Part shown: positions 39,314 through 44,373 of the stretch, one piece after another
Numbering within the stretch: the first letter of the stretch is position 1
Layout of the letters: each line of letters opens with the position of its first letter
Program-made: the position numbers and the translations under genes
DNA from: Candidatus Gallispira edinburgensis
Lineage (GTDB): Bacteria; Bacillota; Clostridia; Lachnospirales; CAG-274
NCBI GenBank assembly: GCA_904395805.1
Contig: CAJFNV010000026.1
Location: 1-46,555 of the forward strand
Direction: 5' to 3'
DNA: 46,555 nt
Notes under the pieces: model-generated
Seen by the model: only the letters and a program-made list of their open reading frames with translations
What the model was told of the DNA's origin: nothing
Databases searched by the model: none

Positions 39314-39577
39314 AAAAAAATAAGCGCTGCACGTCCCCAGGACGCAGCAGCGCGGTACCACCTGAATTAACATATAATCATGTAGCAAAAATATGTTCTC
39401 TCTTTATCCGTAACGGGGATAAGCCGTCATAGCCTACTGGGCGATCAGCCTTTCGGTATGCCACAGTCAGGGTGATGTTCGGAATATACACTGACGCCGT
39501 GCTCTCACCTTCCACAGCTCTCTTTGGTCTTTTGCATATACCTACTGTCCCTGCTATAGTGTTTATATTAAACAATT
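39314..39577 (-). promoter_or_regulatory. T-box leader (isoleucine) controlling ileS
   Basis: The conserved T-box AGGTGGTACCGCG is at 39363-39351. It is followed by a terminator, GCGCTGC-n-GTCC-TGG-GGAC-n-GCAGCGC (39353-39324), with a T-rich run (39320-39311). Upstream lies a large stem I with a GGTGAGAGC bulge segment and the specifier in GAACATCACC. The codon ATC at 39476-39474 selects tRNA-Ile. Uncharged tRNA-Ile would bind the specifier and the T-box bulge and favour the antiterminator. A 60-codon frame across it is not a gene. Confidence 0.95.
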
Positions 39578-39928: not shown

Positions 39929-39957
39929 AAAAATCATCTTTTAGGCACAAAAATCAT
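39929..39957. promoter_or_regulatory. Tandem 9-bp direct repeats, candidate LytTR binding site
   Basis: AAAAATCAT occurs exactly at 39929-39937 and 39949-39957, a 20-bp period (11-bp gap), so both copies lie on one face of the helix. AgrA/LytTR-type regulators bind two such repeats next to the -35 element. Read on the minus strand, the pair sits 12 bases upstream of TTGAAA. On the plus strand the regulator promoter starts 65 bases further on. Confidence 0.6.
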
Positions 39958-40021
39958 GTTTTTTAATATATACATTTATCTAAAGCTCAAATTTCAGGTC
40001 TAAAACTCAGCCAATTATTTA

Positions 40022-40050
40022 TTGTCTGTAATTATCATATATGGTATAAT
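40022..40050 (+). promoter_or_regulatory. Promoter of the LytTR regulator operon
   Basis: TTGTCT (40022-40027), a 17-bp spacer and TATAAT (40045-40050), about 28 bases before the regulator start codon. Confidence 0.72.
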
Positions 40051-40077: not shown

Positions 40078-40809
40078 ATGCAGATTGCGGTAATTGATGA
40101 TTCGGTTAATGACAGAAAAATTATGCAAAGCCTTTTAAAATCTTTTTCGTTGGAAACAGGTATTAATGTTGATGTATCAGACTTTGAGAGCGGAGAAGAT
40201 TTTTTACATGATTTCAAGCCCGGAAAATATGATGCCATATTCTGTGATATATATATGAACGGCATATCAGGTATTGACACTGCAAAACAAATACGGCTTC
40301 ATGACAATACTTGTATTATTGTATTTCTCACAATGAGCAATAATTTTGCCTCTGAAAGCTATGAAGTTAATGCCTTTGGATACATTATAAAACCTGCTGA
40401 CAAAGAACAGCTTTTCAGACTTTTATCACGTATTACCAAAATAACAGGAAACAGATGTCTTTACTTTAATGCAACTCTCAGGGACAAATCCTCTCTTAAA
40501 CTTTCTATACCCTTTGACAATATTATGTATATTAATATTGCAAACCGAAAAGTTTACATTCATATGCCAAATGAAACAGTTGCTATTACTGAAACAATAT
40601 CACAATGTGCAGAACAGCTTTTAAAGGACAGCCGTTTTTCAAACTGCTGTAAGGGCATAATTGTCAATTTTGAATATGTATCAAAGATACTTAACAATGA
40701 CTTTATTATGAATAACAATGATACGGTGCCTATAAGAAAAAGATACAGCAATGATATAAAAAATCAGTATATGAGTTATAAACTGCATAGTATAATCAAG
40801 GAGCAATAA
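40078..40809 (+). CDS. LytTR-family response regulator (AgrA/LytR type)
   Basis: A DNA-binding response regulator of 243 residues. The receiver domain (1-120) has the acidic pair D7/D8, phosphoacceptor D57 in FCDIYMNG, T85 and K105. The LytTR domain (about 135-237) starts at RDKSSLKLSIPFDNIMYINI and includes NRKVYIHM, plus a C-terminal VPIRKRYSNDIKNQYMSY. ATG 40078 follows GGAGG. Its stop overlaps the next start (TAATG). Its partner kinase is the GHKL protein two genes downstream. The tandem repeats at 39929-39957 are its likely target. Confidence 0.95.
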   Translation: MQIAVIDDSVNDRKIMQSLLKSFSLETGINVDVSDFESGEDFLHDFKPGKYDAIFCDIYMNGISGIDTAKQIRLHDNTCIIVFLTMSNNFASESYEVNAFGYIIKPADKEQLFRLLSRITKITGNRCLYFNATLRDKSSLKLSIPFDNIMYINIANRKVYIHMPNETVAITETISQCAEQLLKDSRFSNCCKGIIVNFEYVSKILNNDFIMNNNDTVPIRKRYSNDIKNQYMSYKLHSIIKEQ

Positions 40810-42500
40810 TGAAAACAAAAATATTAACATTTATATTAATTGTAAATTTTATATCTGTATTTCCCGTAAACGAAAAGGTCTCAGCCCAATCTCTTTCCGT
40901 TATCAGTGAGGATATACTCTCAGGCTCTGCCCTTGAAACAGTCGGTGATAATATCGAATCAGGTTCTTCAGCCGATACCGGCACCGATAACATCATCACA
41001 GTCCTTGAAGTATCGGGGGAAGAAGTTCCTTTACAGTTTTTTCCTGTAAATTCGGAAATAACCGGGCTTGAACTGTATAATTATGCTGCCGTAATAACAA
41101 AGGAATATCTATATATCCACTGTAAGATCAAATGGGACTCTCCTGAGACCATAGACACCTCAACCCCGGGCAGGAAAACTCTCAAAGGTTATTTAATTCC
41201 TCCCGATGGCTGTATTTTTGAAAATAATGCCAAGCCTTACGTTGAAATTCCCATTATTATATATGATGAGTCAGGTGAAGGTACAGAAACACTCCTGCCC
41301 CCTACAGAAATTGATTATAATGATGACATAATCATCGTAACACCAGGCACAGATATATCCTCATATCTTGAAACAGAATATGAATATCCTGTTTACACAG
41401 AAACAGGCGATTATTTTTACTGCAATGTAAAATGGGAAAATATTTCATCCTTTACCGAAACAGGCTATCACAATATTCAGGGCAGACTTCGGCTCCCAAA
41501 GGGAATTAAAGCCCGGAATGAAGATGATACCATTGTTTACAAACGCTTTTATGTAATGAAGGACGATAAAATATATATCGGACCCCATTACAAGCATGGC
41601 AGCAGCGCCATAATATTCCCGTGGCTTAAAGAAATAGCTGACCCTGAAAACATTGAATTTTACTACTCATATGACGGAGAAAACTGGAGCATAGTTCAGG
41701 ATGATTATTACGGTTTTGCAGATTATAACTATCTTTTCATATCCACATTAAAGCTTGAAGCAGATAAAGATTATTATTTCAGACTTTGCTATAAGGGCGA
41801 ATATACAGACATTATCAAAATAAATTTAAGCAAAGATGAAATAACAAGCATAGGAGGCGACCGTGACGGCGGCGACAACAGCGAGCAGGAAATGCCGCCT
41901 GTCAAACAGTCCTACAGATCAGGCGGTCACGGTGTCACATCAGACAAGGATGAAAACCCTGTTATTACAGAAAAATCTGACGAAAACTCTACAACAGTTT
42001 CAGGTAAAAGACTTAAGGATATGATAAAAACACCTGATAACAAAATAACATTTGAAAAAGACGGTATTGAAGTTAAAATTCCCGGTGACTTCATAGAAGA
42101 AAATAACATCGAAGAAAATGATGCTGTTACTGTAACCATAGACAAAAAAGATGATAACAAATTTTCATTCTCTCTTGATATAAATGATAAAAAAATTAAA
42201 GATATTCCCCATTCGGAAGTTTATATTCCTCGCAAAAATTCTAAAGAGCCGGAAAAGTTTATAATAAACAGCACAGGTGAATATGATCTTCCCCCTGATA
42301 ACATCATTGAAAACGAACCGTCTGATAACCCAAAAATTTCAGATAAAAATTTAACTTCAGCCGATGATATTATAACTGCCGAACAAAAAAACACTGTAAC
42401 TCCGATACCTGTAATTTCAATAATAATTTTTTGTTCCCTGTTTATTGCCATATTGATCATTTTATGGAGGACTGTATTTTATGAAAAGCAGCAGAGATAA
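40809..42500 (+). CDS. Membrane-anchored multidomain surface protein within a two-component operon
   Basis: I do not recognise a named family. The 563 residues comprise: a signal peptide (about 1-26, ending KVSA), an acidic Ser/Gly/Thr linker, two related Ig-like units (about 55-140 and 170-250; CKIKWDSPETIDTSTPG and CNVKWENISSFTETG align), a third beta domain (about 255-340, EFYYSYDGENWSIVQDD), a Gly/Asp/His/Ser-rich linker, a further beta domain (about 400-490), and a C-terminal membrane helix (VISIIIFCSLFIAILIILW) with a short KQQR tail. The bulk is outside the cell. Being between a regulator and its kinase, overlapping one by 1 base and the other by 20, it may be a sensor accessory or ligand-capture subunit. 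This role is inferred. Confidence 0.75.
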   Translation: MKTKILTFILIVNFISVFPVNEKVSAQSLSVISEDILSGSALETVGDNIESGSSADTGTDNIITVLEVSGEEVPLQFFPVNSEITGLELYNYAAVITKEYLYIHCKIKWDSPETIDTSTPGRKTLKGYLIPPDGCIFENNAKPYVEIPIIIYDESGEGTETLLPPTEIDYNDDIIIVTPGTDISSYLETEYEYPVYTETGDYFYCNVKWENISSFTETGYHNIQGRLRLPKGIKARNEDDTIVYKRFYVMKDDKIYIGPHYKHGSSAIIFPWLKEIADPENIEFYYSYDGENWSIVQDDYYGFADYNYLFISTLKLEADKDYYFRLCYKGEYTDIIKINLSKDEITSIGGDRDGGDNSEQEMPPVKQSYRSGGHGVTSDKDENPVITEKSDENSTTVSGKRLKDMIKTPDNKITFEKDGIEVKIPGDFIEENNIEENDAVTVTIDKKDDNKFSFSLDINDKKIKDIPHSEVYIPRKNSKEPEKFIINSTGEYDLPPDNIIENEPSDNPKISDKNLTSADDIITAEQKNTVTPIPVISIIIFCSLFIAILIILWRTVFYEKQQR

Positions 42501-44373
42501 ATATATTTACATATATGTTCTGGTTACAGCATTTTTACTGCCTGCTGCTCTTTTTTCATTTTTTAATGTTTTCAACAATAAATACACACATAAATCATCT
42601 CAGCCTATAAACGGTATTTTATACTTAAATCAGGCTGACAGCAGCAATATTACATTTTTAATAAACCAATGGGAATACTATGAAAATAAGCTGCTTACCC
42701 CCGATGATTTTAATAACGCCGCAGATTTATATGTTCAGTATGTATCTATAGGTGAATACACATCAATGCACACATATAAAAAGGGGACACCTTATGGCAG
42801 GGGCACATACAGCTTAAGGATAGTGTTTCCCGAACATGAGGATTACTACTCTCTTTATATTCCCGAGATCTATTCAGCCTATGATCTCTATATAAATGAC
42901 AGCCTTATGCTTAAAATGGGGGATGCCGAAAATTACGAACCTGCTACCCAAAACCGAACTGTCACATTTAAGGCATCGGGAGACACCCGTATTATATTTG
43001 CCGTAAGTGACAACTCGGGCATATACAGCGGCATGGTATACCCTCCCGCAATAGGAAGCCCTCATATTATAACAAGCTACAGTAATAAAATAATATTTAT
43101 AAATTCTTCTGTACTTGTATTTTTGATCATATGTTTTTTCCTTTCCCTTTACACGGCATTAAAAACGGGAGAAAAGACAACATATATATTCGCCCTTCTC
43201 TCCTTTGCAGCAATGGGCTTTATATGTTACCCCCTTCTGCATACCTTTTTTGTATCAACAAACAATTTCTGGTATGCCCTTGAAATATTTTTTCTTTATT
43301 TTGCCTGCAGCCTTATAATTCTGCTCCAGAGCAAGCTTACGGGAGTAAAAGTTTCTGCGGCATCGGCAGCATTTATTGTAAGTATAGCCATGTGCATACT
43401 TTCGGTTTTTTACTGTATAGGAGCACCTTTATTCACTGCAGGTATCAGAAGTACCTTTTCCCATATACTTACAGTGTATAAATGGTCAGTGCTTCTCTAC
43501 TTGATATATACTGATATTTATTCCATTCTCCGTAATTCGGAAAAGACTGCACCTTTGATTTTCGGCACTGTCTTTTTTGCCTCTTCTCTTGTATTTGACA
43601 GGCTTTATCCCCTTTATGAGCCAATATACGGAGGCTGGTTTATAGAAACAGGCTGCATTGTAATGATAATATCATTGGGCTTTGTCCACTGGCGAAATAT
43701 GATTTATTCATACAAAAAGGGAATTTCCTTTGAAGAAGAGCATAAATATATGCAGAAGCAGATAGAAATACAGAAAGAAAACTATGTCAATATAAGGGAT
43801 AAAATAGAAAAGACAACAAAGCTCAATCACGATTTCAGGCATCATATTTTCGTAATAGAGGAATATCTGCAAAACAGGGAGTATAATAAACTTACGGAAT
43901 ATTTAAAGTCAATAAACAATGATTTTTATGTTTCGGAACCTGTTGTATTCTGTTCCAACACAGCCATGAATGCACTGATACACTACTACTATACGGTATC
44001 TCTTAAAAATTCAGTTGATTTCAGTGCATCTGTCAATGTGCCCTCTGATATACCAATAAGTGATACAGACATAAGCATAATCACAGGCAATCTTATTGAA
44101 AATGCCCTTGAAGCAACTCTAAAGCAAAGAACAAATGACAAAAGATATATAAAAATTTACGGCAATGCCGAAAAATCACAGCTTATACTGACTATTGAAA
44201 ATTCATTTGACGGAAGTATAAGAAAAGACGGAGACAAATTTTATTCCTCTAAAAGAGATGATTTCGGTATAGGTATAGAATCCGTAAAGGCTGCTGTAAA
44301 TAAATATAACGGCATAATCAACATTTCCCACACCAACAGCGTATTTACGGTATCGCTCATTTTATTCTATTAA
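42481..44373 (+). CDS. GHKL sensor histidine kinase with 7TM sensor region
   Basis: A kinase of 630 residues. A first membrane helix (about 8-30) is followed by an extracellular beta-sandwich (about 40-195; GTYSLRIVFPEHEDYYSLYI, SAYDLYINDSLMLKMG) resembling 7TMR-DISM sensor domains, then seven hydrophobic segments (about 204-402), a short coiled coil, the AgrC-like phosphoacceptor segment KLNHDFRHH (H450), and a GHKL ATPase with N box GNLIENALEA (536-545) and G box DDFGIGIESV (593-602). Its ATG follows GGAGG inside the end of the surface protein gene. The only sensor kinase in the window, it should phosphorylate the LytTR regulator. Confidence 0.93.
   Translation: MKSSRDKYIYIYVLVTAFLLPAALFSFFNVFNNKYTHKSSQPINGILYLNQADSSNITFLINQWEYYENKLLTPDDFNNAADLYVQYVSIGEYTSMHTYKKGTPYGRGTYSLRIVFPEHEDYYSLYIPEIYSAYDLYINDSLMLKMGDAENYEPATQNRTVTFKASGDTRIIFAVSDNSGIYSGMVYPPAIGSPHIITSYSNKIIFINSSVLVFLIICFFLSLYTALKTGEKTTYIFALLSFAAMGFICYPLLHTFFVSTNNFWYALEIFFLYFACSLIILLQSKLTGVKVSAASAAFIVSIAMCILSVFYCIGAPLFTAGIRSTFSHILTVYKWSVLLYLIYTDIYSILRNSEKTAPLIFGTVFFASSLVFDRLYPLYEPIYGGWFIETGCIVMIISLGFVHWRNMIYSYKKGISFEEEHKYMQKQIEIQKENYVNIRDKIEKTTKLNHDFRHHIFVIEEYLQNREYNKLTEYLKSINNDFYVSEPVVFCSNTAMNALIHYYYTVSLKNSVDFSASVNVPSDIPISDTDISIITGNLIENALEATLKQRTNDKRYIKIYGNAEKSQLILTIENSFDGSIRKDGDKFYSSKRDDFGIGIESVKAAVNKYNGIINISHTNSVFTVSLILFY

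Follow-up and report, generated by a model that had tools for sequence, protein, structure and literature searches.

A surface protein that probably serves as external co-receptor of a DISM-like 7TM kinase in Clostridia

In the QseE-QseG-QseF system of Enterobacterales, the accessory protein QseG binds and activates the kinase QseE (PMC12691602). The operon described here is located in a 46,555-nt stretch of Candidatus Gallispira edinburgensis (contig CAJFNV010000026.1, positions 1 to 46,555, forward strand; referred to as the window) and resembles this system in being a three-gene cluster of a kinase, a regulator and an accessory envelope protein, which we call SURF. However, QseG is a Gram-negative outer-membrane lipoprotein, a description that sets SURF apart from it, and QseE and QseF carry no description as 7TM or LytTR proteins in that paper, unlike those of the present system (PMC12691602). 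In the RgsP-RgsM pair of Rhizobiales, a 7TMR-DISM receptor likewise interacts with a membrane-anchored, wall-binding partner, but the outputs of RgsP are PAS-GGDEF-EAL domains and RgsM is a putative peptidoglycan metallopeptidase, whereas SURF has no enzyme domain (PMC6107284). 7TMR-DISM kinases of the RetS and LadS type share with the window kinase, as modelled, the order TM1, beta-sandwich ectodomain, 7TM block and kinase; in contrast to these, the window kinase has no PF07695 or DISMED match and possesses a dedicated surface-protein partner. To our knowledge, the ligands of DISM-like 7TM kinases are mostly unknown. The kinase core and LytTR regulator are reminiscent of GHKL/LytTR systems such as AgrC-AgrA and the LytS-type BtsS-BtsR, from which the present system differs by its added ectodomain and surface partner and by having no peptide precursor or exporter gene. 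Accessory proteins tuning a kinase are also found in LiaF-LiaSR and CpxP-CpxA; LiaF and CpxP are inhibitors and are unrelated to SURF in sequence and architecture. No description of a combination of DISM, LytTR and accessory protein was found in the literature searched, to which the 2003 paper defining 7TMR-DISM did not belong, and a literature search for the GGDRDGGD motif of SURF found no paper. The partnership of SURF and kinase is apparently undescribed, and SURF has no family model of its own in Pfam or NCBIfam. By analogy, the system may work like other accessory-protein two-component systems, with a different surface-protein family and a DISM-like 7TM kinase.

The operon encodes, in this order, a LytTR response regulator, SURF and a GHKL histidine kinase, with the following features in and around it:

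39335-39566, minus strand: T-box leader of ileS (Rfam RF00230), containing the small ORF 39378-39575
39929-39956, plus strand: first tandem LytTR-like box, AAAAATCA-N12-AAAAATCA, 20 bp apart (predicted; perfect genome match)
39982-40009, plus strand: second tandem LytTR-like box, AAAGCTCA-N12-AAAACTCA, 20 bp apart, just upstream of the -35 (predicted; perfect genome match)
40022-40050, plus strand: promoter-like site TTGTCT-17-TATAAT with TG before the -10 (consensus scan alone, 10 of 12)
40078-40809, plus strand: response regulator, receiver and LytTR DNA-binding domain, 243 aa (PF00072 E 1.4e-19, PF04397 E 3.3e-13)
40809-42500, plus strand: SURF, single-pass surface protein, 563 aa (ORF, AlphaFold2 model, relatives)
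40989-41558, plus strand: predicted Ig-like (Big_4-type) pair of SURF, residues 61-250, units about 61-162 and 170-250 (AlphaFold2 model; Big_4 in relatives)
41562-41834, plus strand: predicted third beta domain of SURF, FN3/Ig-like, residues 252-342 (model; VIA Z about 6 to many Ig/FN3 domains, generic)
41853-41876, plus strand: GGDRDGGD motif of SURF, residues 349-356 (conservation over 27 rows)
41979-42293, plus strand: predicted C-domain (fourth beta domain) of SURF, residues 391-495, start near SGxRL (model, about 390-495; HMM matches)
42411-42485, plus strand: predicted C-terminal membrane helix of SURF, residues 535-559 (model, 535-562; hydropathy)
42481-44373, plus strand: GHKL histidine kinase with TM1, ectodomain and 7TM block, 630 aa (PF14501 E 2e-17; model pLDDT 87)
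43024-43056, plus strand: YSGMVYPPAIG of the kinase, residues 182-192, at the ectodomain end (kept in nearly all SURF-partnered kinases)

The first-pass annotation had placed regulator, surface protein and kinase in tandem overlap, and the ORF coordinates agree exactly, with overlaps of 1 and 20 bases. Its account of SURF as two Ig-like units, two more beta domains and one C-terminal membrane helix, and of the kinase as carrying an extracellular beta-sandwich and a 7TM block, is borne out by the AlphaFold2 models (mean pLDDT 78.7, based on an alignment of 27 rows, and 87, respectively). The divergent small unit that it included has to be dropped: the sole small divergent ORF upstream (39378-39575, minus strand) falls inside the ileS T-box leader, and a small divergent peptide gene was therefore rejected as part of the system. 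An Agr-like peptide system was likewise rejected, as neither a peptide precursor nor an exporter gene lies beside the operon. The SpoVS gene downstream of the kinase is convergent and unrelated to the operon.

Regulator and kinase belong to the GHKL/LytTR two-component systems: Response_reg and LytTR are matched in the former and HATPase_c_5 (GHKL) in the latter, with PF00072, PF04397 and PF14501 all above the Pfam cut-offs and the phospho-acceptor His present. In the kinase model, TM1 is followed by a beta-sandwich ectodomain (residues 32-193) and seven more helices (194 to about 405), after which a long helix carrying H450 leads into the ATPase core. H450/D451, N537, E540 and N541 are invariant in the alignment, and the best solved-structure match of the core is AgrC (VIA Z 16). 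PF07695, which covers the 7TM block, is matched by 8 of 30 relatives (best E 3.4e-6) and not by the window kinase, the modelled topology of which agrees with it; DISMED1 and DISMED2 have no Pfam match in any member, including the window kinase, and the ectodomain is still modelled as a beta-sandwich. Support for DISM membership of the window kinase thus comes from its predicted topology and from those relatives that match the Pfam model, and not from a match of its own. The fold predicted for the 7TM block is also similar to that of class A GPCRs (VIA Z about 14, with 3.7-4.7 A over about 213 residues), a likeness that may reflect a common helical arrangement, given that this could produce a VIA Z near 13. 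Foldseek matched the block to human Wntless (7kc4, E 3.8e-5). Wntless has its parts in the same order as the kinase.

In the SURF model, a signal helix precedes the two Ig-like units, the third beta domain, a flexible stretch, the fourth beta domain and the C-terminal TM. The GGDRDGGD motif is placed in the flexible stretch after the last outer domain; D356 is invariant, and D351, D353 and G354 are kept in at least 90% of 27 rows. Homology to Big_4 Ig domains reaches E values down to 1e-8 in SURF relatives, and searches of SURF against Pfam and NCBIfam gave nothing beyond a weak Big_4 match and no enzyme domain. PDB sequence searches with SURF, the kinase or their profiles yielded no significant match, and VIA-align of the SURF model returned generic Ig matches alone (Z below 7), a comparison by which the C-domain was barely probed. 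An HMM of the C-domain matches 29 proteins of the scanned loci described below. The tail of the window SURF has no LPXTG-type sorting signal, which sets it apart from sortase-anchored proteins; one of 27 SURF relatives matches PF00746 weakly (E 0.048), and some tails in the Anaerotignum group are LPXTG-like (LPVTGG, LPVSGG). Parts of SURF also occur in stand-alone proteins with no adjoining kinase, one with the C-domain and TM (locus L057, 7695-8810) and one with the third domain (L058, 3947-4603). At L080 (1137-2800, same contig as L045), the SURF frame is broken before the TM helix, representing a pseudogene or an assembly error.

We think it reasonably probable that SURF is the external co-receptor of the DISM-like 7TM kinase in a three-gene, self-regulating surface-sensing system. 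SURF would be exported and held in the membrane by its C-terminal helix, and its Ig/FN3-like domains, on a flexible stalk, would bind something at or beyond the wall. SURF may thus bind a ligand and present it to the kinase ectodomain: its membrane-proximal C-domain and TM, the GGDRDGGD motif, or both, would couple, presumably by physical contact, to the beta-sandwich ectodomain and 7TM block, and engagement would change the state of the 7TM kinase. The kinase would then phosphorylate the LytTR regulator, which would bind at its own promoter to the tandem repeats with their 20-bp spacing and raise or lower expression from that promoter; in relatives, the same operator may also serve giant secreted-protein operons.

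The co-receptor reading draws support from the distribution of the genes. SURF homologues are present in 8 of 48 genomes of the window's own family. In the six with strong matches, SURF is directly followed by the kinase, or by the start of it where the contig breaks off, and is preceded by the regulator wherever the contig reaches; other neighbours vary. The LytTR/GHKL pairs that come next in similarity share about 26% identity and are made up of two genes, with no SURF. A profile search revealed distant SURFs in other families of the order, directly upstream of a like kinase, with the regulator moved in some. Scanning genome contigs with SURF alone gave no match; since SURF diverges too fast, we used the kinase sensor half alone (alignment A4: ectodomain and 7TM), which avoids searching with SURF itself, and scanned 84,980 species genomes. 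This gave 48 loci across Clostridia, including Blautia, Ruminococcus callidus, Hungatella, Lactonifactor, Anaerotignum, Anaerovorax, Marasmitruncus, Intestinibacillus and C. difficile. Two were set aside, L126 (cut by a contig end) and L098 (a decayed copy), and SURF adjoins the kinase in 42 of the 46 analysable loci, a count that combines an automatic architecture rule (29/47), C-domain HMM matches and a reading of the remainder. Under the same automatic rule, SURF was found beside 2 of 36 lower-scoring DISM-like kinases versus 29 of 47 in the scan set, which supports the co-receptor reading. The SURF and kinase genes mostly overlap or stand within tens of bases of each other, and conservation is far above chance. 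SURF is hence a conserved partner gene beyond kinase and regulator. The first-pass annotation regarded the three genes as one sensing system, a view that kinase-regulator pairs frequently occurring without the surface protein in relatives would have undermined; orthologous kinases without SURF are rare, and SURF tracks the sensor half through changes of core and regulator. At the decayed Sporanaerobium locus (L098, 5566-7878), the regulator is cut to 99 aa, SURF is gone and the kinase is split.

Two branches of the system can be distinguished. In type I, which includes the window, SURF lies upstream on the same strand and is combined with a GHKL core and a LytTR regulator; in type II, SURF is divergent from a HisKA-type kinase and the regulator is of the OmpR type. 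Judging from sequence impression, the N-terminal region of type II SURFs may resemble a parallel beta-helix. One short motif recurs across both branches, as GGDRDGGD in type I and GxRGG in type II. In the mosaic locus L077, the sensor falls within the type I clade (support 0.942), as sister to a GHKL member (0.998), and SURF carries GGDRDGGD, while the core is HisKA and the nearby regulator OmpR-type, which ties SURF to the sensor half rather than the output half. This association persists while gene order, regulator type (LytTR/OmpR) and kinase core (GHKL/HisKA) change, and its persistence supports a co-receptor. So does the minimal SURF of genome G278, which is reduced to signal peptide, C-domain and TM and is retained beside its kinase.

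Three of the four SURF-negative loci among the 46 belong to C. difficile. The C. difficile-type genome G679, whose 675-aa kinase is flanked as in the C. difficile loci, contains two tandem SURFs (643 and 660 aa; L216, 4249-8229) unlinked from the kinase and beside a SpoIVA-like gene, which again favours the co-receptor reading. These copies were picked up by a type II SURF profile run with controls; a type I profile, run without a positive control, had no match in G679, G438, G758 or G048. Locus L119 of Anaerosphaera is a clear SURF-less case as far as the locus itself goes, with none beside the kinase. In G438, which encodes the kinase L186, profile searches of the genome detected neither type I nor type II SURF; SURF has been lost and kinase and regulator are intact. 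That this kinase manages without SURF counts against the co-receptor reading.

Nearly all SURF-partnered kinases have Y[SG]GxxYPP or a close variant at the ectodomain end and EP[IVA]xxGW in the last TM hairpin, with variation in some partnered members (L092, L106, L111, L140). Both YSGxxYPP and EPIxGW are lost in the SURF-less kinases L119 and L186, which have IHIGENTSNPLVFG and IRAGITSPPTLG in place of the former and FESIYSGH and YDSIYTDQS in place of the latter; L186 has evolved faster, yet modestly so. In the Blautia group, SURFs without GGDRDGGD accompany kinases with SGI[QR][FY][VI]PV instead. The loss of the motifs adds support for the co-receptor reading, but the correlation amounts to about three independent events, which counts against it, and we regard it as a lead to a docking surface, short of proof. 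In a more specific version of the co-receptor reading, which we offer tentatively and consider rather unlikely, the flexible GGDRDGGD/GxRGG segment would act on the YSGxxYPP face of a GPCR-like 7TM kinase as its tethered ligand or docking peptide. A single signalling core would then be conserved across Clostridia, and the varied outer domains (Ig-like, FN3-like or beta-helix-like) would be exchanged on it. Two further points weigh against a co-receptor: the long stalk would set GGDRDGGD far from the membrane unless folded back, and the sortase-like tails of some relatives would put SURF in the wall.

The operator pattern bears on the co-receptor reading and on its nearest rival. The perfect tandem box occurs just twice in the 2.5 Mb own genome, both times at this operon's promoter. 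A direct repeat at exactly 20 bp (at least 8 of 9 positions) lies upstream of the regulator in 10 of 15 loci, compared with 0.35 on average and at most 3 in shuffles, and in 6 of 10 when one locus per close clade is counted. These predicted sites are of the LytTR-type tandem direct-repeat kind, and their conservation at the promoter supports a self-regulating co-receptor system. A wider regulon in the own genome was rejected, as 17 sites with at most one mismatch compare with 8 in a reversed-pattern control and form no clear pattern. The corresponding box CAAGCGGT-N12-CAAGCGGT is present at the regulator promoter in Anaerotignum neopropionicum (G292) and G089, and in both also before operons for orphan receiver-like proteins and a giant secreted protein. 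This suggests autoregulation generally and, in some lineages, control of giant surface proteins. Co-transcription equally fits SURF as an output, which counts against the co-receptor reading: SURF could be an adhesin or wall protein under two-component control and autoregulated with it, the kinase sensing something else by itself. SURF does lie inside an apparently autoregulated operon, the operators before giant surface proteins make surface proteins plausible outputs, and Ig-like domains are common in adhesins. Nevertheless, we judge such an output unlikely, given that SURF remains with the sensor half when kinase core, regulator and gene order change, that one kinase still has beside it a minimal SURF devoid of surface domains and that SURF-less kinases have lost the sensor motifs.

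Alternatively, SURF could be a brake that keeps the kinase off, until engagement, displacement or cleavage near GGDRDGGD frees it. Accessory inhibitors are known, namely LiaF and CpxP (PMC3543457, PMC4160245), and a near-invariant motif in the flexible segment that follows the last outer domain would fit a processing site. However, no protease gene accompanies SURF at the examined loci, and a pure brake would leave the kinase of G438, which keeps its regulator intact, constitutively active; we find this arrangement quite improbable. That SURF is a mere passenger in an otherwise ordinary two-component operon is already disfavoured and most improbable: the same family commonly has DISM-type LytTR/GHKL pairs that lack SURF and consist of two genes (L050-L055), but SURF is present at 42/46 loci over much of Clostridia despite changed neighbours, gene order and output modules, and is retained even when unlinked.

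If SURF is the co-receptor, having a dedicated, variable subunit at the surface would account for the reading of many external cues by a single sensor core, and those cues could then be put to the test. The carriers are common gut and environmental Clostridia, among them Blautia, Ruminococcus, Hungatella, Anaerotignum and C. difficile. Since the operator ties the system to giant surface proteins, the system may govern what these bacteria display on their surface. Operons in Anaerotignum/Anaerovorax relatives, located close to the system or on their own, carry the same tandem operator and encode small receiver-like proteins and, after these, giant secreted proteins (L227, 7307-19001; L228, 7077-12001; L091, 2572-3024; L095, 1-3399), and one of these small receiver-like proteins matches PF00072 (E 2.9e-7).
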